From a virus, in IMG/VR virus record IMGVR_UViG_3300042355_000563, positions 1 to 44,038 of that record: a DNA stretch of 44,038 nt. One strand, 5' to 3'. The notes beneath the pieces were generated by a model. The model worked only from the letters and a program-made list of their open reading frames with translations. It made no database searches and had not been told where the DNA came from. This document shows, piece by piece, positions 496 through 42,871 of this stretch. Both the position numbers and the translations under genes were made by a program. Position 1 is the first letter of the stretch, and the number at the start of each line of letters is the position of its first letter.

Positions 496-837
496 TTAAC
501 GTGACCGCAAACCGCGACGATTAATGTCCCTAGCCAATTCACGGACATCTGCTGGGATATCCTCGCAGGAATGCTGGTTCTTCATCGAAAGAACCACTGC
601 TTCTTCGATGGTATATCCAGAATTGGTGCGATGTAGTGTCACTACAAGTGTCTTGGGACGGGTATGCTTTGCTCGAAACCACTTTTCGGTGGAACACTGT
701 CCTAGAATTGGACGTGTCGAACGACTCTTGGTGGTCTTACTGGTTTGGGTTGTATTTTCCGTTTGGTTTTTGCTGCTTTCTTGGTTCATAATTGTGATAT
801 TACTAGGTTTTTTTGTTTTCTGCAAGTAAAAATTCAT
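496..837 (-). CDS. Hypothetical basic protein
   Basis: Unrecognised, 113 residues. The first half is rich in Ser, Thr, Asn and Lys and is probably disordered; the second half (about 45-113) is basic and compact, ending in an Arg-rich tail. Its ATG overlaps the TGA of the RadA-like gene upstream (ATGA), so the two are probably translationally coupled and share a transcript. A second ATG 16 codons in is a possible alternative start. The basic C-terminus would suit nucleic-acid binding, but no motif proves it. Confidence 0.6.
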   Translation of the reverse strand: MNFYLQKTKKPSNITIMNQESSKNQTENTTQTSKTTKSRSTRPILGQCSTEKWFRAKHTRPKTLVVTLHRTNSGYTIEEAVVLSMKNQHSCEDIPADVRELARDINRRGLRSR

Positions 838-1673
838 TTTGAGAGAAAATCGTCAATGATTTTCATTCCATATTTGATATTATCGAAAATCTTAATCAAT
901 GTAGGTTTGGTTTTACGTTTATTAACTGAATTGCGTTTCGAATTGGGAACTAAAAATAAATTGTTTGTGATTTGTTCTTCGTTTTCAATTTCTTGAGTAT
1001 CGGAAAAATCTTCTTCTACATCGAAATTATAACCTTTTTTGGTCATCTCCAGACAAATTTCCTTAGATGAACCGAAACGGTTTTTCGTTGTATAAATCTT
1101 CCTCATACCTTTCTTTTCTTCTTCTGGAAAGAGTTCAATATGTAGATTTGCATCAACTTTGTGCGCCAAATACGACGAACCTTTCATTGTTCCGTTTTTG
1201 GTCATGTGAATAACAATGAAAATTGCACAATTTGTAAGTTTGGCTTTTTCGTAAATTAGATCAACTGCCTTTTCTTCGTATGTCAATCTTCTCTTATTTC
1301 CAATATTGATCATGGACAAACTATCCATAACCAATACATCCAAATCATCCATTGCAGAGAGAACTTCATCAATAGTATTGAATGTGGAAATAGGTACATC
1401 CACGCCAATCCGGTTTGCAGTATATGCAATTTGCTCGATAGTTTCTTCACAGGAAAGATAACCAACCGATTTATTTTTACTACCACATGCATCAAGAAGT
1501 TGAAGCATGAATTGTGTTTTGCCAGCACCCCTATGCCCACAGACAGTCAATACCTGCCCTCCAACCAAACCACCGCCAAACAAATCATCAACAATTTTCA
1601 ACCCAGTTTTGATTCTTTTAAAGAAAGAATTCGGTACTGTAATTGCTGTATTTTTCGTGAATTTGATAGCCAT
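834..1673 (-). CDS. RadA/Sms-like RecA-fold ATPase
   Basis: 279 residues with a RecA-type ATPase core. Walker A (GHRGAGKT) is at about 46-53 and Walker B (VLVMDS) at 113-118. An HMTKNGTMKGSS segment at about 156-167 matches the RadA HxTKxG..G signature, and the RadA-specific KNRFG motif is at 197-201, followed by the usual E(I)xxxEM strand. Bacterial RadA is a branch-migration helicase in recombination. This version lacks both the N-terminal C4 zinc finger and the C-terminal Lon-like domain and has instead a charged tail of about 65 residues. It heads a two-gene unit with the basic protein 496-837. No TAAATA motif precedes it, which suits early or middle expression. A UvsX- or DnaB-like role is less likely because of the KNRFG motif. 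Confidence 0.8.
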   Translation of the reverse strand: MAIKFTKNTAITVPNSFFKRIKTGLKIVDDLFGGGLVGGQVLTVCGHRGAGKTQFMLQLLDACGSKNKSVGYLSCEETIEQIAYTANRIGVDVPISTFNTIDEVLSAMDDLDVLVMDSLSMINIGNKRRLTYEEKAVDLIYEKAKLTNCAIFIVIHMTKNGTMKGSSYLAHKVDANLHIELFPEEEKKGMRKIYTTKNRFGSSKEICLEMTKKGYNFDVEEDFSDTQEIENEEQITNNLFLVPNSKRNSVNKRKTKPTLIKIFDNIKYGMKIIDDFLSK

Positions 1674-1714
1674 ATGTGTGTGATGTTTTCTGTCTACATG
1701 GATAGACTCTCACA

Positions 1715-1733
1715 CAAAATTATCCCGGTCAAC
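1715..1733 (-). promoter_or_regulatory. Possible non-late promoter for the RadA-like gene
   Basis: On the minus strand upstream of 1673 are GATAAT (1719-1724) and, overlapping it, TAATTTTG (1715-1722), which resembles the Bacteroidetes TAnnTTTG -7 element; TTGACC lies at 1728-1733. No partner element at correct spacing is convincing, so this is a weak call. Confidence 0.25.
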
Positions 1734-1763
1734 CCTTTTTATAAAAAAAAAATTGATCTGGAG

Positions 1764-1769
1764 TAAATA
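1764..1769 (+). promoter_or_regulatory. TAAATA late-type motif
   Basis: TAAATA ends 5 nt before the ATG at 1775. GGAG at 1760-1763 is one of the few Shine-Dalgarno-like strings in the window, but at 11 nt from the ATG it is far. Confidence 0.5.
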
Positions 1770-1774
1770 ATAAT

Positions 1775-2257
1775 ATGCAACGCTCCGAATTGAACTCCTT
1801 ATCTGAAGCTTATACAGAAGTTGTTTTAAACAACAAAATTATTACACTTATCGAACAAGGAAAAACTTCGGAAGAAATTCAGCAACAACTTTTAGAAGAA
1901 GGTTTTCTTGATAAACTTAAAAAAGGTGTAGGTGATTTTGCCAGTGCTGCTGGATTTACTCCCAAAAATTTGGGAGCTAAAGTTGGTGGATTTCTCGGAA
2001 CCGCACCAGCAAAAGCACCAACAAAAATACCAAGAACAGCAGCTTCTACAGCTACTAAAAAGGCACCTACTGCTTCACCTATACCTTCACCAACAAAAGC
2101 CCCAGCAAAAGCACCAACAAAAATACTATCAGATTACAATATAGTGTTGGACGATATTGCCCATTTTCTATCAACTTCTTCGCTTATCAAAGGTAAAAAG
2201 AAAAGCGATTACCTCAATATGCTTTCTAAAGGTTTGAAAGCAATGGGTTACAAGTAA
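1775..2257 (+). CDS. Hypothetical protein with Ala/Pro/Lys/Thr-rich linker
   Basis: 160 residues, not recognised. An N-terminal helical segment (about 1-60) and a C-terminal helical segment (about 118-160) are joined by a low-complexity linker (about 75-117) rich in Ala, Pro, Lys and Thr, containing two copies of an APAKAPTKI unit. The linker is duplicated at DNA level (28 bp, one mismatch). This architecture is common in virion proteins that tether two folded ends, and the TAAATA motif before the start supports late expression, so a structural role is inferred. It faces the next gene tail to tail, with no gap (2257/2258). Confidence 0.65.
   Translation: MQRSELNSLSEAYTEVVLNNKIITLIEQGKTSEEIQQQLLEEGFLDKLKKGVGDFASAAGFTPKNLGAKVGGFLGTAPAKAPTKIPRTAASTATKKAPTASPIPSPTKAPAKAPTKILSDYNIVLDDIAHFLSTSSLIKGKKKSDYLNMLSKGLKAMGYK
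2003..2126 (+). repeat. 28-bp direct repeat within the linker coding region
   Basis: Positions 2003-2030 and 2099-2126 are identical over 28 bp except for one base. Both encode the APAKAPTKI unit. This suggests linker growth by duplication. Confidence 0.85.
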
Positions 2258-2572
2258 TTACTTGAATGTTGGTGCGAGAGCTTGAGCCAACGCTTTCATA
2301 GTACCAATCTTCTTGTTGAAGATGTCTTTTGTTGAGCATTCAGCCATTCCATTCAGCTGTCCGAATTCTGGATGATCAACTAAAACAATCGTTGAACCAC
2401 CTCGTGCATCTAGGTAATGGTTTGGATATAAAATTTCCGCCAATTCAAATGTAGTTCTAACAACATGTTTCTTTCCTGTTCTGGAATCGAATAGATAGAA
2501 ATCTCTCATATGAGAAACTTTAACTTTGATTCCTTTTCTCCGAATTTCAGATACATGTGGGATTACTTTCAT
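2258..2572 (-). CDS. Hypothetical protein
   Basis: From the ATG at 2572 it encodes 104 residues. The longer open frame to 2701 overlaps the 3' end of the upstream gene and has no support. Not recognised. It is mixed alpha/beta with a basic first half and a hydrophobic central segment, and no membrane segment or catalytic motif is visible. It follows the DUF1737-like gene with a 41-nt gap and probably shares its transcript. Confidence 0.6.
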   Translation of the reverse strand: MKVIPHVSEIRRKGIKVKVSHMRDFYLFDSRTGKKHVVRTTFELAEILYPNHYLDARGGSTIVLVDHPEFGQLNGMAECSTKDIFNKKIGTMKALAQALAPTFK

Positions 2573-2613
2573 AGATGTGCTTATAATATAAATTTTTTGG
2601 ATAAAATCAAGAA

Positions 2614-2856
2614 TTATTTCACCAAAGATTGTGCAAATACGATTCTGCTGTGGTATGGACTCGTTTCGATACATGTAGAAACACCACCAGAAACTTCCCA
2701 TCCTTCTTGAAGATGTTGGTTTACGAAACTGGACAATTCTTCTGCCGAATTAGCTGTTACAATTTTATATTCCAATACTTTTTGTGGTTCTTCGGAAGTC
2801 AAAAGAGTTTGTTTTTCTGTAATGATATTTGTGTGTTTATTTTTTTTAGATGACAT
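2614..2856 (-). CDS. DUF1737-like small protein
   Basis: 80 residues. The C-terminal half matches the DUF1737 pattern: EYKIV near residue 29, then a helix with VN..L, then a GWEVSGGVS turn near 52-60. DUF1737 proteins are small single domains of unknown function, often in phages and bacteria. The first 25 residues are charged and probably flexible. It lies back to back with the ferritin-like gene at 2883, sharing a 26-bp intergenic region. Function unknown; the family call rests on the GW..GG pattern only. Confidence 0.65.
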   Translation of the reverse strand: MSSKKNKHTNIITEKQTLLTSEEPQKVLEYKIVTANSAEELSSFVNQHLQEGWEVSGGVSTCIETSPYHSRIVFAQSLVK

Positions 2857-2871
2857 AACTTGAATTTTTAA

Positions 2872-2877
2872 TAAATA
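2872..2877 (+). promoter_or_regulatory. TAAATA late-type motif
   Basis: TAAATA ends 5 nt before the ATG at 2883; there is no Shine-Dalgarno sequence. Confidence 0.5.
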
Positions 2878-2882
2878 AAATC

Positions 2883-3242
2883 ATGAATGTTATTGGACCT
2901 CTTATACAATTTCAACAACAACTTCGAATTTTTCATTGGCAAACCGATTCATTCGCTGAACACGAAGCTTTTGGTAAAGCATATGAAAATTTAGATGGAT
3001 TAATTGACGAATTTGTGGAAACTTATATGGGTCGTTTCGGTAAGATCAAACCAACAATTACATTTAATTTAATTCTCAAAAGTTTGGAAAGCGATAACGC
3101 AGTAAAAGAATCTTTATCTAAATTTGAGGGATATTTAATCGAAATGTCAAACGAAATTCCACAAGAAAGTTATTTGCTTAATATTCGTGATGAAATGTTG
3201 GCAGTTATCAATAAACTTCGTTATCTGTTGACACTCAGATAA
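2883..3242 (+). CDS. Ferritin/Dps-like helical protein (DUF5856-like)
   Basis: 119 residues, all-helical. The pattern QLRIFHWQT at about 13-21, then AEH near 25-27 and IDEFVE near 41-46, resembles the first helices of Dps/ferritin four-helix bundles, where His, Glu and Asp bind iron. It matches the phage family I know as DUF5856. At about 120 residues it is shorter than Dps (about 160-180), so a full ferroxidase shell is not assured. It could be a DNA- or metal-associated virion or early protein. The TAAATA motif suggests late expression. Confidence 0.65.
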   Translation: MNVIGPLIQFQQQLRIFHWQTDSFAEHEAFGKAYENLDGLIDEFVETYMGRFGKIKPTITFNLILKSLESDNAVKESLSKFEGYLIEMSNEIPQESYLLNIRDEMLAVINKLRYLLTLR

Positions 3243-3410
3243 TTAATCTACTAAATCATCATTTTCAATATTGGTGATTTTTGATTGCAAAACAAAATCC
3301 AATTCATCTTCATCCAAATTTAGTTGCTCACACAAAAATTCAAAACAATCAGTTTCTGGTATAATTTCCAGAACTTCATTGAGTAAATTTATACACTTCT
3401 TCTTATTCAT
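3243..3410 (-). CDS. Small acidic protein
   Basis: A 55-residue frame from the ATG at 3410 to the TAA at 3243-3245. It opens with Met-Asn and three lysines and then becomes strongly acidic (LDEDELDF near 33-40). It is supported by a TAAATA motif 7 nt upstream whose flanks resemble those of the tail sheath gene, and by exact filling of the gap between the stop of the plus-strand gene (3242) and the next minus-strand gene. No family recognised. Confidence 0.55.
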   Translation of the reverse strand: MNKKKCINLLNEVLEIIPETDCFEFLCEQLNLDEDELDFVLQSKITNIENDDLVD

Positions 3411-3417
3411 TGAAATC

Positions 3418-3423
3418 TATTTA
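3418..3423 (-). promoter_or_regulatory. TAAATA late-type motif
   Basis: On the minus strand ACTAAATAGATT precedes the ATG at 3410 with 7 nt between hexamer and start. It shares its first twelve bases with the motif before the tail sheath gene. Confidence 0.5.
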
Positions 3424-3434
3424 GTTAAGAAATG

Positions 3435-3719
3435 TTACTTTTTATTCCATTTTTTGCTGAATTTCTTTATGGTGCAATTACAATATTCCGATAACGGACA
3501 CGCATCACAAAATCTATCGTAATCTAGATAAATGTCTGGGCGTAAACATGTTGTCTCCTTAGAGACAATTTGTATAAAATTGTTTTTAGCATTCCTCTTT
3601 TTAGATTCGTAATCAATTACAGCAGGTTTATAATTCTCAACAAAATTAAACAACGAATCCAACTTTTCTTTTTTTAAGACTCGCTTTGATTTAGGTTTTT
3701 CCTTCTTCGTTTTTTTCAT
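3435..3719 (-). CDS. Hypothetical Lys-rich protein with C-terminal Cys cluster
   Basis: 94 residues, not recognised. The first 20 residues are almost all Lys, Arg, Ser and Pro. The C-terminal third has five cysteines: one near 58, then CxxCxxxxxCxC at about 71-82, a spacing compatible with one zinc or iron-sulfur site. The ATG at 3719 follows the TAA of the upstream gene with a single base between them, so the two are coupled. Confidence 0.6.
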   Translation of the reverse strand: MKKTKKEKPKSKRVLKKEKLDSLFNFVENYKPAVIDYESKKRNAKNNFIQIVSKETTCLRPDIYLDYDRFCDACPLSEYCNCTIKKFSKKWNKK

Positions 3720-3720
3720 T

Positions 3721-4110
3721 TTATAGAAAATCGGGACTGAAGTAATCGTCTTCTATAGGAAAGCAACCGCTGAAATTGTTGGATATATTAACATTAGAAA
3801 TTATAGATTCGATATTATCAGAATCTTTGAAACATGATTCGTAGAAATCTTCACCTTTTGCTACCGCATCAAACGATGCATACAAATATTGATTACCCAT
3901 ATCCGAATACGCATCGTTATAAAGTGCATAACTTAAATCGGATGCAATCGATCTATAAAGTTCAGCTGTTTTCGGTGGTAATTTTCGAATTATTTGCTTT
4001 TTAACCGACAAATTATCCTTTTTGACTGGGTTGAAATCTAAAACAGATACGAAATCCCAAAAATTTCGTATATTATCTTTGCCATATTTATTACGTATAT
4101 CTGGATCCAT
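3721..4110 (-). CDS. Hypothetical protein
   Basis: 129 residues, not recognised. Largely helical, acidic at the C-terminus, no transmembrane segment. It is read from the ATG at 4110, 41 nt after the end of the nuclease gene, and is coupled to the downstream Lys-rich gene. No TAAATA motif precedes it, so it may be transcribed with the nuclease gene. Confidence 0.6.
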   Translation of the reverse strand: MDPDIRNKYGKDNIRNFWDFVSVLDFNPVKKDNLSVKKQIIRKLPPKTAELYRSIASDLSYALYNDAYSDMGNQYLYASFDAVAKGEDFYESCFKDSDNIESIISNVNISNNFSGCFPIEDDYFSPDFL

Positions 4111-4151
4111 GTTAAAATCGAGTTTTTATTATTAATGATTTTTTACTATAA

Positions 4152-4862
4152 CTAAGTTTTTATTGTATCTTTATTTAATTTATCCTCGAATAAATTTTTT
4201 ACAGTATCTCTCATATAAACACATGGTATTTCTTGCCAATAACGTGTGTCTGATTCACGCATATAGAATATCTTTAAACCTCCACATTTCTTCTGTGTGA
4301 GGACTTCATACATATATGCATAGATAGATAGCTGAATTGTATATGTGGTCAATTCACATTGAGGGAGATAATCTATGGGGGGACAAAAATATTCATTGTA
4401 CTTACTGACATAATTAAACATTTTATTTGTTTTGAAATCCAAAATGTAAAATGTATTGTCGTTTTCAATGATCAAATCAGCAGTTCCTGCAATTTTATAC
4501 TCATGGTTAAAACAAATCTGTTCACTTTTTATTTTGCTGTTGTTTTTAACCAAAAACGATATCTTCTTTGCGAATTTTTCAGCTAATTCTTCATATCCTT
4601 CCTCAATATATTTCTCTTTGAGAAACCTTTCCATGACCAAGTGAATCTTGGTTCCTCTATTTTGAGCCTTTACAGTAATTTCCTTCCAAGAATTCAATAC
4701 AGTTTCTTGTGAAACACCTTCACGTTCAGCGACCTTCTTGCTCCAAAAATCAGAATCAAATTTCTTTTTGTAAAGTGATATGAAATTCGTAACCGAAATA
4801 TACTGCTCTCCGGTTTTTGTATTTGTATAAATGTGCTTTTCGTGATCTAATACAACTTCCAT
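4152..4862 (-). CDS. PD-(D/E)XK nuclease, RecB/Cas4-like
   Basis: 236 residues with the ordered motifs of the RecB-type nuclease fold: GTKIHLVME at about 70-78 (the conserved GxxxH helix), GTADL with the metal-binding Asp at 126-130, LDFKT with the Asp and catalytic Lys at 141-145, and a QxxxY helix at 177-181. Such enzymes cut DNA ends in recombination or process DNA during replication or packaging. No helicase domain or cysteine cluster is fused, so it differs from RecB and from iron-sulfur Cas4. It has no TAAATA upstream and is followed by two small genes that it may lead as an operon. Exonuclease rather than endonuclease activity is inferred from the family. Confidence 0.8.
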   Translation of the reverse strand: MEVVLDHEKHIYTNTKTGEQYISVTNFISLYKKKFDSDFWSKKVAEREGVSQETVLNSWKEITVKAQNRGTKIHLVMERFLKEKYIEEGYEELAEKFAKKISFLVKNNSKIKSEQICFNHEYKIAGTADLIIENDNTFYILDFKTNKMFNYVSKYNEYFCPPIDYLPQCELTTYTIQLSIYAYMYEVLTQKKCGGLKIFYMRESDTRYWQEIPCVYMRDTVKNLFEDKLNKDTIKT

Positions 4863-4901
4863 CCCCGGATAATATCAAATTTTTGATTGGATGTCAATTA
4901 A

Positions 4902-7607
4902 TTAGAAATCAATTGACATATAAGTTGGTATATGCCTAAAGTATGGAGGACTATCTTTAATCTGTTTGAAAATATTAGATCCCCATCCATATAAGTCACC
5001 ATCTTCCGTTGACATATATAAAGTGGTTTGCATCGAATATTGTTGAGTGAAATCTTGATATGGTGAATATATCCAATTCGGAGCTATATATGCACCATAA
5101 TAACGTTGATTCGCTCCATACGTTCTGAAATCACTCCATTTTTTATTTGTGGGACTGGGTATTTTTTGAAAAGTATTTGTATTAACACCTACTGTAGAAT
5201 AATACAGTGTTTCGAATTGATCTTGTAAAAGGACTTTATTAGATCCGTCCAATTTATTAATACGCCCACATGTATATAATTCCCCATCAGTTGTGAGGAA
5301 TGTGAATGTTATTACGCTTTGCCCATCGTAATAAAGTCCATATGCTTCCATTTTCTCAATATTATCAATAGAAGCACCACTCAATGTTATTTCTTTTGCA
5401 AATTTTTGTTGAACATTTGTAGTTCCTAATCCCAATTCACCATGAACATTACGACCCCATCCATATAATTTCGAATTTGTTCTTGCGTAAACACTAGCAC
5501 CACCATTTGAAGCATCGGTCATTGTCATTTCGACAACATCACTTAATTTAGTTGCTCTATCTTCCAAATAAATGGGTAGGAATGGGTAATATTTGGTTTC
5601 TGCTTCTGATGGTGCTCGATTGTTACCTAATTGATAACCAGCATTAGTTCCACATGAATACATTTGACCAGCAGTTAATGCAAAGACTGCTGTATAATAT
5701 TTCCCACCATCAGAACTATCATGTCCCGATCCCATTATACTTTCCGCTTTTAATGGAATCACATCATTTGTTGGTATGGTAACAATACCATTACTACTAA
5801 ATGTGGCATTTGGAGATACATGACATTTTCTGAAAATATTTGAAGTATTTGAAGCTGATAATGATGATACCCCCAAATTTCGTGCATAATTAGCTCCTGT
5901 TGCCCACACCTGATCGTCAGAATCAATCAAATATGTCGATCCGTTATTTCTTGTGCTGACGGGAAATATATCTTTAACACTGAAAGGTACAATCGGATTT
6001 ACTGTTCTATCATATAAAATAGATGGAATGTGATTTCCCGCTAAATCCCCAGTAGTAAATTGCCCATTACCCAATTGACCCGCTAAATTACATCCCCATG
6101 CAAGTCCGATATATTCATTAGTTTTCGAACCATGCGAAAAAGCACTTAAAGCCGAATTAGTTTGAAATAAACTATTACCAGATATACTGGCAACAGCTAC
6201 TACATGTACTCTCGGTGTGTATGAATTACTTGTAGGACCACCAGTTGCTACACGGAAATCTTTAACAACGGCACCAGACAATGGTATTTCAGTATATTCA
6301 CGAATAAAAAAGTTTTTATTATTTTGTGAATAATTTTCACCCACACCAATACCATCGGCACTATTGTTTGATTCGTTTACTGTACTGTCGGACAAAATTC
6401 CAGAACTACCCGATGTGTTTCTACCAGTAAAAAACATTCTGCCTTTATCTGTCAATAACCAAACCGAATTATAACCAATTCTAAATTTATCAATTTGTTC
6501 ATCTTCATTTAAAGGTAGATTACGCACAGATACAGACACCGAATCCAAATCCACACCAACACCAGCACCTATATAATTATCTCGGACTATGTCATAGTCA
6601 CTAATTCTACCCCTCATTCGCAAAATTCCATCATCACCCAAAAATAATACAGCACCTAAAGTATTTGCGCTTTCCGCATATGTACATTCGGAAAATTTAT
6701 TGTGTTTAATTCTACCACCAAACAATTTCTTCAATTTATCTATATCCAAATACAATCCAGATAATGAATTGAATGAAATTGGATCTGTGCCACCTAAAAC
6801 AATATTATCTTTACATTCAATTCTTCCGACTGAACTTGGTGGAACGGATGTAACTGCAATTGATCCAGTATTATCTAATGCTAATGTAGTATTATCTAAT
6901 TTTGCTTTGAATGTTCTGGATGTTAATGATCCATTTAAAACATCTGTGTAATATATACCATCTGTTGATGTAACGTCATAACCACTCAATGCCAAAGAAT
7001 TTAGATCAACAATTAATTCTCCATTTGCATTAAAATCTACTGTAGTACCATCAACTTTAACAAAAATACCACTATTATCATAACCAATACCGAATCCCGA
7101 TTGTGTTTGAACCGCCAATGAACTTACCGAATCAATATATAAAGTTTGATTATCTATATTAACTCTCAACCCACTAACGGAATCTAATGTCAATCCTGTA
7201 CTAGCTACAGAAGGATGGATATATCTACTGCTGATACCACTGAATGCTACAGAATAAACATTAAAACTATTTGACGTTAACGTCAAATTATCAGTGGATG
7301 TATTTTCAGCTATTTGTGTGTAATCTAAATTACCAGAACCAGTAGCTATATATGTTACTTGTGTGAGTTGATTGAATATTAAATCACCGGGAACTATTTC
7401 TGGATATGCACTAAGATAAAATGGCTCGATTGTACTTATTGCATGTGTTTTATTTGAAATTAAAATACCACCAAGATTACCATCACCGACATATACCCTC
7501 TTTTTATCTGTAGTATATATCAATTCACCAGTTAAAGGAGTAATAAGCATTCGTTCGCTTTCTAATCCTCTTCTTAAACTGTAACGTGCTATTCTTCTGT
7601 CGATCAT
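4902..7607 (-). CDS. Tail fibre with C-terminal RCC1-type beta-propeller
   Basis: 901 residues. The N-terminus (about 14-50) carries a motif typical of phage fibres, in which an ER..ITPL.GELIYTTD segment leads to VYVGDG; in other phages this sits at the virion-attachment end. Residues 100-300 are Ser/Thr/Asn/Asp-rich beta repeats, as in fibre shafts. From about 320 to 890 there are seven or eight RCC1-like units marked by WG/CG/TG-N-G-LG signatures at about 390-400, 504-514, 568-580, 651-662, 715-728, 778-790 and 873-884. RCC1 repeats form a seven-bladed propeller, so the fibre tip is probably a propeller that could bind the host surface. The gene is last of the distal tail block, with TAAATA overlapping the stop of the gene before it. 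Confidence 0.75.
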   Translation of the reverse strand: MIDRRIARYSLRRGLESERMLITPLTGELIYTTDKKRVYVGDGNLGGILISNKTHAISTIEPFYLSAYPEIVPGDLIFNQLTQVTYIATGSGNLDYTQIAENTSTDNLTLTSNSFNVYSVAFSGISSRYIHPSVASTGLTLDSVSGLRVNIDNQTLYIDSVSSLAVQTQSGFGIGYDNSGIFVKVDGTTVDFNANGELIVDLNSLALSGYDVTSTDGIYYTDVLNGSLTSRTFKAKLDNTTLALDNTGSIAVTSVPPSSVGRIECKDNIVLGGTDPISFNSLSGLYLDIDKLKKLFGGRIKHNKFSECTYAESANTLGAVLFLGDDGILRMRGRISDYDIVRDNYIGAGVGVDLDSVSVSVRNLPLNEDEQIDKFRIGYNSVWLLTDKGRMFFTGRNTSGSSGILSDSTVNESNNSADGIGVGENYSQNNKNFFIREYTEIPLSGAVVKDFRVATGGPTSNSYTPRVHVVAVASISGNSLFQTNSALSAFSHGSKTNEYIGLAWGCNLAGQLGNGQFTTGDLAGNHIPSILYDRTVNPIVPFSVKDIFPVSTRNNGSTYLIDSDDQVWATGANYARNLGVSSLSASNTSNIFRKCHVSPNATFSSNGIVTIPTNDVIPLKAESIMGSGHDSSDGGKYYTAVFALTAGQMYSCGTNAGYQLGNNRAPSEAETKYYPFLPIYLEDRATKLSDVVEMTMTDASNGGASVYARTNSKLYGWGRNVHGELGLGTTNVQQKFAKEITLSGASIDNIEKMEAYGLYYDGQSVITFTFLTTDGELYTCGRINKLDGSNKVLLQDQFETLYYSTVGVNTNTFQKIPSPTNKKWSDFRTYGANQRYYGAYIAPNWIYSPYQDFTQQYSMQTTLYMSTEDGDLYGWGSNIFKQIKDSPPYFRHIPTYMSIDF

Positions 7608-36243: not shown

Positions 36244-38883
36244 TTAGCCAACAAGTTCATTAAAATCAGTTGATGTTCTAGTTGCATAGAAGTTTACCAA
36301 GATAAATTCTGCTGCTCTTACTGGTTTAATATAGATATCAACAACCAATTCATTCTGATCAATTACGTCAGGTGTATTGTTTCTTTCATCACAAACAATT
36401 AGATATTCATACAAACCTTCAGTGTTCTTAGCTCTATCAAAGATAGGACTGAGCGTACTTGCAATACGTTTTCTTGTAAAAAATGTATTTGGTTCGAAGA
36501 TGAAGAATTTAGCTGTTTTCTTAGTAGCTTTTTCGAGATACAAGAACAAACGACGAACATTAATACGATCAAATGCACTTGGTTGTCTTAGCAATGTCTT
36601 TTGACCGAAAATATTAATTCCTTCATTTGGGAAGAAAGCAACAGGATTGATGTTAATCTTATACAACATGTCGCGTTCCTTTTGTTTTGGTGTGATTGCA
36701 ACTGCAAGAGCATTGCCAACTCTACCTCTAGTGAAACCAGCAGGAGCATACCAAGGTTGGAAATTGCTATCAACATTTGCCATATCAGCAACAGCAAATC
36801 CAGAGAAAGGAACCCAGACATTGATACCGCTATATTGATCATTTACTTTAACCCAGTTACCATATGTTGTTGCATAACTGCTGTTTGCTAATGAATATAG
36901 ATTTCTTAGTGAGTTGTAAATGTATTGAGAGAAAGCTTTGTTATTATCAGATAATACCAAAGTATTTTTACCTCTTACAAATATCTGCCTCAAAGGATCA
37001 GCAACTAACATACAATCCTTACGAATGTTTGAGCAGAAATTCTCAAATAGAGAGAATACTGCATGATAGTTTGCACGTAGATCTTGTGTATCATCTGTTG
37101 GTGGGACATACTCCGCTTTTAGTAAAGCTTGGAGACCCAAATCAAGACCATGATTAATTTGAGTATCATCGAAAGTTTGTGTTCCATTTGCACAAACTGT
37201 TGCATAGATTGTACCCAATCCTGCTTCAGCTACTAGATCAAGATCAAACAATTCATCATTTTCGATTTTTCTTAATGATCTATCGATCTTATCTGTCATT
37301 TTTCCGATTATTTTGTTATCTGATGCGTTGCCGACATAAGGTCCGACAGGGAACAACGAATCGCCATAATTAAATAAATTGGATGGACCAATAATTTCTT
37401 CGAAATCTGCAATATCAAAACCGACTTTATCGTAACTAAATTCGTTTGTTAATAAAGTTTCGGTTGTATGAGAAATTAGACGGATCTTTTTAGAAGGAAC
37501 TCCATTATTATCAGCCCATCCATCAGAATTTACATCGCTGATGTTGTCATTAATCATCACGATTGCATTCGGTGAATTTTGATTGAGATTTCCGAGATAG
37601 AATGTCTTTGCTAAACCACCATTCTTATCATTAATTTGACGATGTGAATCCACAGAACCATAAAGCAATTCTTCTGGGAAGTAGTCCAATTTAACAGTAT
37701 CTGCTGCATATGGACTTTGGCGAAGTTTGATGAATGAGATTGAAAGAGTATCATCAAATTTACGGGTTGGTGCATCAGCAAATTGATATGTAGCACGTTC
37801 TACCAATTGTGAAATATTTCGATCATTTCTACCAAATCCACTATCTTTTGTAGCGGATAAAGCAAATGCGAGACGTGTTTCAGGAATAACAACAAGTTCA
37901 TCTGATGCTAAACCAGCAGAAGCATTTTCCGTTACAGTTGATACTCCGCGAATCGTATCGTGATCACTATTTGGTTCGATATTTACGTTATCACAAATAC
38001 CAACATAATGACCTTCACCTCTAGCATTAATTGTGGATTGGATTTTATTTAAAATGATGAGACCAGCTTTACCGAAATCAGCTACAGTATCAATACCAGC
38101 GGAATTATCTCCAGTATTGCTCCAATTACCATTCGAATTCGCAAATGCGGATTTATCCAATACTGCTAGATATTGTTCTTTATTAAGAGTGAAGAATTTT
38201 GGTGCTCCCAATACATAAGTAGAACCATCTTTTGTTAAATCATATGTTACTTCCGTATTGCTATATTGTGAATATCCAGTTAGTGAATTATATGTGGACA
38301 ACCCAACGGCAGATGCCGATGAATTTCCACTATCCATTAATCCAGTAGCAGCGGATAGCAATGTGTTATATGCAGAAATTGAAATTTTTCTATAAGAATC
38401 AATACCATCTTGATCTAAAGTAAAAGATATTAATTCACTTTCCAGTGTCGTATAAAGTGCCGATGTACTTGGTGTTGTAAGAACTTTGTTAAAAAACTCA
38501 GCAGAAATTAATTCGTCATTTCTGTATATATTCGCTCCAGTCACGGGAGCTACAGCAATTACAGGATAAACCAATGCACCATACAGTGAACCATCATAAC
38601 CATCACCAAGATCATTACCATAAGGTAATCTACTCAAAAATAAATTTCCTTGTGAAGAATTCAAAACTTGTCTTGCACTAAAATAAAAGTATCTTTCTGC
38701 TGGGCATGTTGGTTTACCGTAAATATTTTCAAATTCTTCGACTGAAGTGATCTGAAGTATTTCATCGGTTGGTCCTTTACTTGCAAACCCTGTCATGAAA
38801 ATATTTGTTCCAGCGGGAAGAACTGGTGACAACGAAAGATCTTTTTCGATAATTTCTACTCCCGGTGATTGAATTGTACGCAT
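36244..38883 (-). CDS. 18: Tail sheath protein, gp18-like
   Basis: 879 residues, longer than T4 gp18 (659). It opens with the sheath signature SPGVEIIEKDLS near 6-17 and GFASKGPTDE near 32-41, then VEEFENIYGKP near 47-57. The C-terminal 250 residues carry the conserved core: WYAPAGFTRGRV near 683, then NPVAFFPNEGINIFGQKT, then INVRRLFLYLEK, and the final IKPVRAAEFILVNFYATRT strand that forms the inter-ring mesh. The middle (about 90-560) holds variable outer domains. The sheath contracts to drive the tube into the host. Base composition here is less AT-rich than in neighbours, as expected for a highly expressed gene. Confidence 0.92.
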   Translation of the reverse strand: MRTIQSPGVEIIEKDLSLSPVLPAGTNIFMTGFASKGPTDEILQITSVEEFENIYGKPTCPAERYFYFSARQVLNSSQGNLFLSRLPYGNDLGDGYDGSLYGALVYPVIAVAPVTGANIYRNDELISAEFFNKVLTTPSTSALYTTLESELISFTLDQDGIDSYRKISISAYNTLLSAATGLMDSGNSSASAVGLSTYNSLTGYSQYSNTEVTYDLTKDGSTYVLGAPKFFTLNKEQYLAVLDKSAFANSNGNWSNTGDNSAGIDTVADFGKAGLIILNKIQSTINARGEGHYVGICDNVNIEPNSDHDTIRGVSTVTENASAGLASDELVVIPETRLAFALSATKDSGFGRNDRNISQLVERATYQFADAPTRKFDDTLSISFIKLRQSPYAADTVKLDYFPEELLYGSVDSHRQINDKNGGLAKTFYLGNLNQNSPNAIVMINDNISDVNSDGWADNNGVPSKKIRLISHTTETLLTNEFSYDKVGFDIADFEEIIGPSNLFNYGDSLFPVGPYVGNASDNKIIGKMTDKIDRSLRKIENDELFDLDLVAEAGLGTIYATVCANGTQTFDDTQINHGLDLGLQALLKAEYVPPTDDTQDLRANYHAVFSLFENFCSNIRKDCMLVADPLRQIFVRGKNTLVLSDNNKAFSQYIYNSLRNLYSLANSSYATTYGNWVKVNDQYSGINVWVPFSGFAVADMANVDSNFQPWYAPAGFTRGRVGNALAVAITPKQKERDMLYKININPVAFFPNEGINIFGQKTLLRQPSAFDRINVRRLFLYLEKATKKTAKFFIFEPNTFFTRKRIASTLSPIFDRAKNTEGLYEYLIVCDERNNTPDVIDQNELVVDIYIKPVRAAEFILVNFYATRTSTDFNELVG

Positions 38884-39500: not shown

Positions 39501-40991
39501 TTACCAATTGCTATTATTTATATCATTCAAGGGTTTCCATCCCATTCCATATAATTCGTCGTAATCTGGATTTTTATTTCCGTTTTTATTACCTTCAAAT
39601 AAAATTGGTAATACGGAAGAATTTCCACCTTCTTTTTCATTTGCATATAAAGAAATGGGGTTTACGAAATTTCTGATACCATAATCCATAGGTCTAATTA
39701 ATAATGGTTTATTATTTTCATCTCTCTGAATTATTTCAAAATAATTCTCAATAAGATCATCCGATAATATCAACAATGCCCATATAAAAGCCATTACACG
39801 ATCATCATTAGATCCACTTTTTGCACCCCATGTTCCATTTTTTAAACGAATGAAATCTTTGAATTCGTTGACTGTATTAATATCATTAATACGAACAGCT
39901 TTCATTGTATTAACCCAATATCTCTGATTTATAATTGCTCTGTATTTGGTATTTGTATGACTCATTATACCCAAAAGTCTATTTTTTTGAGCAGCATCTT
40001 TATATCCATATGAAACTATATTTTCGTAATTAAAATTCTTTTTTAAATTATCGACAACTTGACCACCACACCCATTTCTTTCAATTAAAGCTAATGGAGA
40101 CCCCCAATGTTGTAATATTTCATGTGATTTTGTAGTGAATTCACTAGGACTTATTTTATTATTATGGTAAAGTGCAACTTGTTTTATATTTCTCAAATCT
40201 GTTATATCTAGTATTTGTATAACAGACGCATCTCTACCCAAACCTTCCGCTGGATCTACACCAGCTACATATATTCGTTCTTCATTTGGTGTTTCCCAGA
40301 GAAAATAATGATTGTCCTCAAATACATACAAAGGTTTTGTTGTATTGCTTTTCATTTGTTCGAACAATTCATTATCAAATGTCGATTCCCCAATTTCATC
40401 AAATTCGATTTCAAATTCTCTTCTCCATATTGAAATATCACCCAAAGATGCAATTGTATCTTTTTTCCATTGTTCATCTCTACCGGGAACCTCATTCCAT
40501 GGAATTCTTAATGCGACCCAATTGTTTGTTTTCTTAACAGAACCATCATATAATTTGAAAAACAATCCCGATGTATCTCTAGGTGTTGACGCTAATATGA
40601 TTTTAGATTTCTTCGAAGATGAAATAATCGGATATACAGATGCCCAAAACTCTTCAAGGAGATTGCAATTGTGTGATACAACATCATTTGTAATATATCT
40701 GGAACCATCTACACCAGTTACATCATATGCATCTATTTTTCCATTTCTTTTTATACTTTTGACAATTTTAAATCCATCGATAGATTTTATTTTTTTGTAT
40801 CTGGATTTTTTTGCTGTGGTAAATTGACCATTGATACATTGTAATTCATGATCTTCACTACAAATTAACTCTGTACCATCATCAAATTTAAGTTTTAGCG
40901 ATAGAACATTTTCGTTTTTTATTATACCTCTAAAAGATTTCCATCCGGTATCTGTTAAAATTTCCCAATCTTCTGGATTGTTATCTTGCAT
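39501..40991 (-). CDS. 17: Terminase large subunit, C-terminal fragment with C-intein
   Basis: 496 residues. Residues 1-108 are the C-terminal part of a split intein: a block-B-like DHEL near 47-50, then YDVTGVDGSRYITNDVVSHN ending in His-Asn, followed by Cys+1. The extein (109-496) continues the ATPase with LLEEFWASVYPIISS and ILASTPR, the coupling motif, and then the RNase H-like nuclease: GVDPAEGLGRD near 240 with its first Asp, LIERNGCGG near 305 with the Glu, and NDDRVMAF near 415 with the last Asp. It makes a working packaging motor only after joining to the product of 41192-42871. The start overlaps the stop of the small endonuclease-like gene. Confidence 0.88.
   Translation of the reverse strand: MQDNNPEDWEILTDTGWKSFRGIIKNENVLSLKLKFDDGTELICSEDHELQCINGQFTTAKKSRYKKIKSIDGFKIVKSIKRNGKIDAYDVTGVDGSRYITNDVVSHNCNLLEEFWASVYPIISSSKKSKIILASTPRDTSGLFFKLYDGSVKKTNNWVALRIPWNEVPGRDEQWKKDTIASLGDISIWRREFEIEFDEIGESTFDNELFEQMKSNTTKPLYVFEDNHYFLWETPNEERIYVAGVDPAEGLGRDASVIQILDITDLRNIKQVALYHNNKISPSEFTTKSHEILQHWGSPLALIERNGCGGQVVDNLKKNFNYENIVSYGYKDAAQKNRLLGIMSHTNTKYRAIINQRYWVNTMKAVRINDINTVNEFKDFIRLKNGTWGAKSGSNDDRVMAFIWALLILSDDLIENYFEIIQRDENNKPLLIRPMDYGIRNFVNPISLYANEKEGGNSSVLPILFEGNKNGNKNPDYDELYGMGWKPLNDINNSNW
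40668..40991 (-). other. C-terminal half of the split TerL intein
   Basis: 108 codons from the ATG to the terminal Asn (codon 40668-40670). It contains blocks B, F and G; block A is missing and lies on the other gene. The next codon (Cys) is the splice-acceptor nucleophile. Confidence 0.88.
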
Positions 40992-41190
40992 AAAAATTAT
41001 AATCTTTTTCTGTTATTACTTTATATGTGTAATTATTTTCAATACACCACTTTTCTGCGAATTTCTTTTTTATTATGAAATTAGAATCTGATAATTCGGA
41101 TGATGGTTTAATTTCGTATATAATTCGATTTTTATGATCCACAAAATCTGTTATATAAATACGTTCTATATCATTTTCAATATATCTCAT
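40981..41190 (-). CDS. Small endonuclease-like protein inside the split intein locus
   Basis: 69 residues, placed exactly between the two intein halves: its ATG is one base after the stop of the N-terminal gene, and its end overlaps the next start by 11 nt. The core reads YITDF, 8 residues, IIYEIKP, then a KKKFAEKWCIENNYTYKVITE helix-strand pair. This is the minimal Asp-(x)n-Glu-x-Lys layout of PD-(D/E)XK nucleases, similar in outline to TnsA or very-short-patch-repair type folds. Homing endonucleases of the latter kind are known between halves of fractured phage genes. It is much shorter than those, so it may be a reduced or decayed homing endonuclease. Activity is unproven. Confidence 0.55.
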   Translation of the reverse strand: MRYIENDIERIYITDFVDHKNRIIYEIKPSSELSDSNFIIKKKFAEKWCIENNYTYKVITEKDYNFYAR

Positions 41191-41191
41191 T

Positions 41192-42871
41192 CTAATTATC
41201 CAAATTAAAATAATTATAAGCCTCTCTTATCGTAATTTTATTAATTTCCTGTGTTTTTTTGTTTTTTATTTCAATTAGTGCGGACCCCTCGATACACTCT
41301 ATCCAGTCTGCTTCGTCAACAAACAATAGATTTGCGGAAGATCCACGACCAGCAGTGCCTGTTGTTGTAGTAATACCAATACGACTACCATTAGCTAATT
41401 CTAATGATTCCTTTTGGTATTCTTTGACCGCAGGTTTCAACCAATTAGGCAATTCCTCATAAGCCATACGAATACGTTTGAAAATTTCTTTTGCTGTACT
41501 TTCCTTGTTTGCAACAATCAAAATATTTTGATCATTATTAAAACAAGCAGTCCACAAACAGAATATTGTGGAAATTGTTGAATTGTGTGTTGGTATGTTA
41601 TTTTCCCCAAATAAAAACATACCACTTGGATTATCAACAGTTATACATCTAACTGGAACCGATTCTACCTTTTCAATATTTGTTATGTAATGCCATTGAT
41701 TTCTACATTCGGATTTTTTGTGTTCGTTTATTTTAAGTCTTTCTTTCTTAAAAGATAATTTACAAACTTCTTCTCTTGGTTTGAAATTTACAGAACCGCA
41801 AATACCATAAGATTTTCCATATAGTTTAGCTTCTTTTTCTGTGTAAGTTGTTTTGTAACCTAAACTTTTTATTAAAAGATCTACTTGTTTTACTAAATTT
41901 AAATTTTTATTATAGAAAATAGCAGTCCCACTTCTTTTTTCAATGTAGCCATCACTATCAATTAATCCCTTTAATAATTCCAATCGTTGGGTTCTTGACC
42001 CATAAAGGTATTCTTCTGGAATGTGTTTATTCCCAATAAGATTGAGTTTTCTCAATTTTATATGTAATGACTCACCGGAATTTTCCAAATTTTTTAGAGT
42101 TATATTAACATTCCCATCATGTTTAGTATGCAAACCAAAATCGCATTTTTCACTTAAAATTTGCAATAGATCATCAATATCTCTTTTTCCGGAAATTATC
42201 CTACCCCCAGCAGTATGTCCGTCACCTAACCATAATCCAAGAATATAAGGATCTAATATAAAATTCTTCTCGGTATACTCTACACCATTTAATGAATATG
42301 GTATCCTATGATAAGGAGAATTTTCCGAATTTTTAAATTTAATTAATAGTTCTTTTGTACTTTTAACAGAACCAATTCTATTTGATTTTCTATCTGATAA
42401 TGTTTGAGTGAACCACAAATGTTGCTCATCTGCTATTACAGTATCCCCCGTATCAAATGTAATTTTATAACATGGTCTATTATATTCTATTGGATGAGCG
42501 TATGTTACATTACATGGCATTCCAAATTCATTAAAAACTTGATCTCCATTTTTTAAATCCCCCATACGTTTAATTCCATTTGGTGTTGGAATTTCAGTAT
42601 TGACATCTAATGCTTTACCGGATTGGCGCGAGAATAATAAAAGACTGAAGCGATTATCTCTCATCATTCGCAATGCTTTCTTTTGATATGGATGTAACGA
42701 AATTTTTTGTCTTCCTTCATCAACATTAATAATCTGGAAAAAGTTTTCGGCAAAATATAAAACATTGCCGCTACATTTTCTGATTTCAGACACCATTTTC
42801 GGTGTATATTCAAATTGTGCATCAATAGATGGTAAATTTGGATTGTTGAGATAAATTCCTTTTTTAGACAT
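41192..42871 (-). CDS. 17: Terminase large subunit, N-terminal fragment with an internal intein and an N-intein
   Basis: 559 residues from the ATG at 42871; upstream in-frame starts up to 42925 would overlap the divergent gene. The extein parts are 1-86 and 431-525: ISLHPYQ near 57-63 (adenine-binding Q-type motif), Walker A SRQSGK-ST interrupted after Lys86, then NLLFVDEADWIE with Walker B near 514-521. Residues 87-430 are a complete intein and 526-559 the N-terminal piece of a second one. After splicing, the two extein pieces plus the 388-residue C-extein give about 569 residues, close to T4 gp17 (610). The enzyme translocates and cuts phage DNA at the prohead portal. No TAAATA motif precedes it. 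Confidence 0.9.
   Translation of the reverse strand: MSKKGIYLNNPNLPSIDAQFEYTPKMVSEIRKCSGNVLYFAENFFQIINVDEGRQKISLHPYQKKALRMMRDNRFSLLLFSRQSGKALDVNTEIPTPNGIKRMGDLKNGDQVFNEFGMPCNVTYAHPIEYNRPCYKITFDTGDTVIADEQHLWFTQTLSDRKSNRIGSVKSTKELLIKFKNSENSPYHRIPYSLNGVEYTEKNFILDPYILGLWLGDGHTAGGRIISGKRDIDDLLQILSEKCDFGLHTKHDGNVNITLKNLENSGESLHIKLRKLNLIGNKHIPEEYLYGSRTQRLELLKGLIDSDGYIEKRSGTAIFYNKNLNLVKQVDLLIKSLGYKTTYTEKEAKLYGKSYGICGSVNFKPREEVCKLSFKKERLKINEHKKSECRNQWHYITNIEKVESVPVRCITVDNPSGMFLFGENNIPTHNSTISTIFCLWTACFNNDQNILIVANKESTAKEIFKRIRMAYEELPNWLKPAVKEYQKESLELANGSRIGITTTTGTAGRGSSANLLFVDEADWIECIEGSALIEIKNKKTQEINKITIREAYNYFNLDN
41195..41296 (-). other. N-terminal half of the split TerL intein
   Basis: 34 codons, beginning with Cys1 directly after DEADWIE. 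It holds block A (CIEGSALIEI) and the following TQEINKITIREAYNYF strand and helix, and then the frame stops. Block B is on the downstream gene. The short N-part is typical of atypically split TerL inteins. Confidence 0.85.
41582..42613 (-). other. Complete Ala1 LAGLIDADG intein in Walker A
   Basis: 344 codons, residues 87-430 of the host gene. It begins ALDVNTEIPTPNG, an Ala1 intein start known from other TerL inteins. Block B is near ADEQH (147-151). Two LAGLIDADG-type motifs are LGLWLGDGH at 211-219 and LLKGLIDSDG at 299-308. It ends NNIPTHN followed by Ser+1. The insertion lies between the Lys and the Ser/Thr of the Walker A loop. All splicing residues appear intact. Confidence 0.9.

Follow-up and report, generated by a model that had tools for sequence, protein, structure and literature searches.

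How can a virus obtain an intact terminase large subunit (TerL) from a gene that is broken in two, and what broke it? This question is raised by the IMG/VR virus record IMGVR_UViG_3300042355_000563, of which positions 1 to 44,038 were analysed (this whole stretch of 44,038 nucleotides (nt) is referred to as the window). The two genes, terL-N and terL-C, carry complementary parts of a class 1 split intein and are separated by a gap of about 200 nt, nearly all of which is taken up by an open reading frame of 69 codons, ORF69. We read the locus, with a probability of about 0.92, as a fractured TerL gene in which the split intein would be spliced in trans, a second intein of class 3 would be removed in cis, and an endonuclease gene in the break has been mostly deleted. 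The features are listed below (aa, amino acids; ^, intein border).

41192..42871, minus strand: terL-N gene, ATPase half of a T4-gp17-like TerL with cis intein and intein-N; 559 aa and stop
42614..42871, minus strand: N-extein part 1, residues 1-86, ending with Walker A (..RQSGK)
41582..42613, minus strand: cis intein with LAGLIDADG endonuclease, class 3 by its motifs; 344 aa, terL-N residues 87-430
41297..41581, minus strand: N-extein part 2, 95 aa, terL-N residues 431-525, ending with Walker B and the insertion site (LLFVDEADWIE^); gapless match to intein-free TerL
41250..41305, minus strand: 56-nt tract identical to contigs L019/L020, spanning the N-terminal splice junction
41195..41296, minus strand: intein-N, 34 aa (C526-N559), with Cys1 and block A (CIEGSALIEI...); the terL-N stop codon is 41192-41194
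40981..41190, minus strand: ORF69, C-terminal relic of a TnsA-like homing endonuclease judging by profile matches and relatives; 69 codons
39501..40991, minus strand: terL-C gene, intein-C and nuclease half of TerL; 496 aa and stop
40668..40991, minus strand: intein-C, 108 aa, with blocks B, F and G, ending ..VVSHN^
39504..40667, minus strand: C-extein, 388 aa, terL-C residues 109-496, starting ^CNLLEEFW; 55-66% identity to same-site relatives

Both genes encode terminase. terL-N matches phrog_36964 (terminase large subunit) at E=3.4e-83, with TerL family matches covering its extein, and terL-C has a match to Terminase_6C, the RNase H domain of terminases (E=4e-8). Their start positions are 1880 nt apart and their reading frames therefore differ. 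Only terL-N has block A. The remaining blocks occur in terL-C alone: B (SEDH), F (AYDVTGVDGSRYITNDVV) and G (SHN^C). The residue set of a class 1 intein is complete across the two pieces (C1, H48, D90, H107, N108, C109); in an alignment of 10 rows, H48, Y89, D90 and N108 of intein-C are invariant, and H107 and C109 are nearly so. At the junction, the intein-free relatives L002, L003, L005 and L006 read ..LILDELAFIPNNLVEQFW.. and L001 reads ..LILDELAFIEPHLVDEFW.., and the window after excision reads ..LLFVDEADWIE-CNLLEEFW.., equal in length to intein-free TerL with no residue gained or lost. Of all the signs that these 34 + 108 residues are the excised part, this gapless Walker B junction is the strongest. 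TerL without the split intein and the cis intein comes to 569 aa (181 + 388).

The best sequence match of intein-C in the PDB is 6dsl, "Consensus engineered intein CatC" (E=2e-8), followed by gp41-1, and intein-C is 65-72% identical to that of same-site relatives. Intein-N is 82% identical to its counterpart in viral contig L019; searched alone against the PDB it gave no intein match, the query being too short. At the site of the split, a 236-kb viral contig, L014, carries a contiguous intein of 138 aa, the first part of which corresponds to intein-N and the rest of which is 61-63% identical to intein-C. Given the Cat match, the same-site relatives and this contiguous homologue, a chance likeness of intein-C is excluded. 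The L014 intein was modelled with AlphaFold2 from an input of the contiguous L014 intein and intein-C rows (mean predicted local distance difference test score (pLDDT) 85.8, predicted template modelling score 0.80), and all listed PDB neighbours of the model are inteins or intein-like (HINT): VidaL (E=1.1e-9), gp41-1, NrdJ-1 and Cat. Intein-C modelled alone (pLDDT 84.2) gives a partial HINT fold that matches gp41-1, Cat and VidaL. In the model of the L014 homologue, the split falls after the first helix (alpha-1).

The anatomy of the locus and the complementarity of its halves are read directly from the sequence, and agree with an earlier sequence-only reading of the same DNA. That reading had given the coordinates and lengths of both TerL genes correctly. 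It had placed a Cys1 and a 34-codon intein-N right behind Walker B, and a 108-codon intein-C with block B and a closing His-Asn-Cys at the head of terL-C, had described the halves as complementary, and had predicted a spliced product of 569 residues, all as found here. The single HINT fold that it presupposed for the two pieces finds support by proxy, through the contiguous L014 homologue and intein-C alone. The atypical split position that it proposed agrees with the lengths and with the break after helix alpha-1 in the L014 model, and its deduction that the motor would be assembled by trans-splicing is supported. It was right about the two-gene split, but it overlooked ORF69 between the halves and left the cis intein unclassified.

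The cis intein interrupts Walker A (SGK^..^STIST). Class 3 inteins are defined by the WCT set, namely Trp in block B, Cys in block F and Thr in block G (PMC7891396). The cis intein starts with Ala1 (A87) and has no Cys1; it has the W in HLW, the C in VRCITVD and the T in IPTHN^S, matches the class 3 DnaB inteins 6rix/6bs8 with E down to 3e-19 and contains LAGLIDADG_3 (E=2e-9). By these motifs it is a class 3 intein. A single polypeptide, terL-N, hence holds inteins of two classes: a cis intein of class 3 and one half of the class 1 split intein.

The start codon of ORF69 lies 1 base past the terL-N stop, and its last 11 nt are shared with the start of terL-C. ORF69 matches the TnsA-like endonuclease family PF08722 (E=4.7e-7) and positions 194-255 of 270 in the endonuclease profile phrog_15427 (E=6.5e-16). 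A full endonuclease of 300-400 aa fills the gap of an identical split at the identical site in the viral contigs L013, L016, L017, L019 and L046, and also in the second split of L024 (L013 equals L022, with matching contig L015/L021; L017/L018 and L019/L020 are pairs). The endonucleases of the five contigs have Cys-containing and NUMOD3-like segments, followed by RSNWE, ITDF and EIKP, with Pfam TnsA in their C-terminal part; if they are PD-(D/E)xK nucleases, as the fold family suggests, these three would be their catalytic motifs. Over approximately 69 residues at their ends they share 62-69% identity with ORF69, which retains ITDF and EIKP and has lost all upstream parts, including the SNWE segment. 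Homology to the L019 endonuclease restarts at about the terL-N stop, which indicates a deletion of approximately 245 codons that begins at the endonuclease start.

Is ORF69 dead? It might instead serve in stop-start coupling and as the ribosome-binding region of terL-C, or be a trimmed nuclease in a new role, either of which is compatible with splicing. This is doubtful but deserves a hearing. The frame is open and is tightly fitted between both TerL genes, and its differences from L019 fall mostly at third codon positions (15/13/31 by codon position). Pairwise dN/dS (nonsynonymous over synonymous rate) against intact endonucleases is 0.14-0.22 where measurable, with dS near saturation, and 24 nt just 5' of the terL-C start (41026-41003) are identical to L019. 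On the other hand, ORF69 is without the DNA-binding part and the SNWE segment, which is presumed to hold a catalytic Glu, and the same pattern of constraint is expected from a recent deletion. Its dN is 0.25 to L019 and to L013, and that of the intact L019-L013 pair is 0.31. As dN is no larger than between intact genes, either the deletion is recent or ORF69 is still constrained, e.g. as a translational coupler.

The relatives show several states of this one insertion site. The five contigs L013, L016, L017, L019 and L046 resemble the window in their 33-34-aa intein-N, 108-110-aa intein-C and overlap of endonuclease and intein-C. They differ from it in the complete endonuclease and in having no class 3 intein at Walker A; the Walker A site is uninterrupted in L013, L016, L017 and L019, and L046 carries two split inteins. 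L014 shares the site and the homologous intein-C, but has one cis intein without endonuclease and two further inteins in the same TerL. At the L014 locus (1623-5875), Walker A is occupied by a Cys-starting split intein with a different, zinc-finger/REase-like endonuclease gene, and the other two inteins are contiguous, at the Walker B site and at REFE^C..HN^CTFDE. At the L024 locus (808-4753), two successive split inteins divide terL into three genes, the second one lying at the window's site (+1 residue, Thr). In the extein tree the window groups with L013, L016, L017, L019, L046 and L014, in a clade with support values of 97/99; support in the intein-C tree is too weak to order events. The candidate explanation that L014 is L046 minus its endonuclease was rejected: their exteins are nearly identical but their inteins are far more divergent, and the intein was therefore replaced, not just trimmed.

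An exchange near the site is also suggested. The exteins of the window and L019 have 68-73% DNA identity, yet 56 nt (41305..41250; L019 2148-2203) are identical, and the second-longest identical run is 27 nt. Simulation over 8 kb at 70-73% identity produced a run of 56 nt in 0 of 2000 trials, and none with codon-position-specific rates either; at 76% identity it occurred in 2 of 2000. The core 29-mer of the tract, searched in viral_contigs, occurs only in the window and L019. The tract suggests a short, recent recombination between the phage and a relative, whether or not driven by an endonuclease.

In the mechanism that we propose, the TerL halves would be translated separately from an operon, with stop-start coupling, and the short intein-N would dock on intein-C to complete the HINT fold. 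Class 1 trans-splicing by Cys1, the block B His, the penultimate His-Asn and Cys+1 would then yield ..DEADWIE-CNLLEEFW.., and with the class 3 intein excised in cis the active TerL would have 569 aa. A TnsA-like homing endonuclease gene would once have filled the break, as in the relatives, and the element would have spread by endonuclease-driven homing. A later deletion in this lineage would have left the C-terminal piece of 69 codons, which lacks the DNA-binding part as well as a segment presumed to be catalytic. Endonuclease loss after homing is a prediction of the homing-cycle model (PMC1654191). The relic marks the arrangement as a degenerated fractured gene, probably late in the homing cycle. 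Since the endonuclease is mostly deleted, the element is probably no longer mobile by its own means, and splicing would have been kept because packaging needs terminase. Splicing, past homing and loss of mobility are what we infer here; the homology, the fold of the homologue, the same-site relatives and the relic are seen in sequence and model.

Three points weigh against this account. Trans-splicing is deduced from sequence and models and not from transcripts or proteins. ORF69 is not accelerated relative to intact endonucleases, and may not be a dead relic. Finally, the window is one metagenomic virus contig, and the endonuclease deletion could conceivably be a misassembly.

It is also conceivable, if rather improbable, that the split outlives the endonuclease since a two-piece TerL is useful or locked in, with ORF69 selected as a coupler and the two inteins delaying or conditioning maturation of the motor. 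Far less credible is a non-covalent assembly of the halves into a two-piece TerL, with the intein pieces as inert tails. Phages do have split genes that function unspliced, e.g. the endonuclease-split NrdA of phage Aeh1 (PMC2988022), but the catalytic intein residues are retained in the window and in same-site relatives, the break lies directly behind Walker B, and the exact extein junction is preserved. That TerL is really one gene, with a gap that comes from an RNA intron or from an error of assembly or sequencing, can practically be dismissed: introns do occur in phage terminases, as in ICP1 terL (PMC10448857), and the window is a metagenomic contig, but intein motifs stand exactly at both edges, and independent contigs and cultured phages are broken the same way. 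An Rfam search of the window gave no match, and an RNA intron in the TerL gap was rejected on that ground. A sequencing frameshift was rejected as well because several independent contigs are broken at the identical site.

Two other genes of the window were recorded. An 879-aa large tail sheath protein (36244-38883, minus strand; phrog_23, E=7e-70) adjoins the terminase and a tail tube protein in a T4-like order, and a 901-aa protein (4902-7607, minus strand) matches phrog_4219, "regulator of chromosome condensation" (E=1e-17).

The split intein of the window has many relatives. Among named-phage records, 33 encode a related intein-C, many of them T4-like, and 39 encode a related nuclease C-end; a scan of genome_contigs for host-genome relatives found none. 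The sequence-only reading had spoken of a small family, which does not hold because these 33 phage records and further viral contigs carry a related intein. Splitting of TerL by inteins is therefore recurrent in T4-like phages, cultured ones included. Records of cultured phages list the split TerL simply as a pair of genes, each named "terminase large subunit", with consequences for both annotation and TerL-based phylogeny. To the natural, atypically split inteins with a short N part, a kind that serves in protein labelling, the window adds one more. The states of the Walker B site (intein-free, split with full endonuclease, contiguous, and split with endonuclease relic) make the homing cycle of fractured genes testable, in particular whether the split persists after endonuclease loss. 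No description of such a series with an endonuclease relic was found in the open papers searched, which does not prove that none exists.

TerL inteins with an atypical split are already known: AceL-TerL and GOS-TerL, which are natural, and Cat, their consensus. In this kind of intein the N part is short, about 15-37 aa, a range that includes the 34 aa of the window. Their intein-N pieces have 25, 37 and 30 aa and their intein-C pieces 104, 115 and 104 aa, respectively (PMC11766414, PMC13014065), and the S2 split position, after helix alpha-1, has been reported for AceL-TerL and GOS-TerL (PMC13014065). Like the window's intein, they belong to class 1, interrupt phage terminase and combine a short N part with a long C part, the break lying after the first helix. 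Unlike them, the window has a truncated endonuclease between the halves, its N polypeptide also contains a class 3 intein, and its intein-C is distant from CatC (28% identity in a structural alignment). Assignment to the AceL-TerL type is supported by split position and the Cat consensus, not by AceL-TerL sequence or insertion site.

The order terL-N / TnsA-like endonuclease / terL-C is shared with the cultured T4-like phages PD112 (Tequatrovirus), PspYZU05 (Jiangsuvirus), TG1 (Yersinia) and SEA1 (Gelderlandvirus). In cultured T4-like phages with split TerL, intein-C is homologous at 37-39%, and the PD112 endonuclease is 53% identical to ORF69 over 51 aa. The four phages differ from the window in their full-length 200-aa endonuclease. 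A further difference in PD112 and PspYZU05 is the insertion site, which lies five residues upstream, right behind DE (IDE^C). Thanatos-2 and TB34 are left with two genes, because their terL-N and intein-N continue in frame into the TnsA-like endonuclease, and JK32 has the same gene layout; at all three loci (L025 467-2212; L026 1757-3508; L035 1757-3508) both pieces are annotated as terminase large subunit. Campylobacter phage IBB_35 (L030 2227-5065) has an intein-C-like sequence after the terL gap (4892-5065) and another at 3501-3800. In the literature this gap is described as an intron that contains a homing endonuclease (PMC3322345). Both intein-C-like places may be split inteins instead. 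In Campylobacter phage CP21 (L011 1050-5336), TerL has, in addition to two contiguous inteins, a split one whose halves flank another gene, CP21_126, and whose intein-C start is unannotated. Fractured genes, in the work of Dassa et al. from 2009, are said to consist of split intein halves flanking a free-standing endonuclease gene, the endonuclease reportedly forming a new, Vsr-like family. In the window, by comparison, the endonuclease is TnsA-like and truncated to 69 codons.

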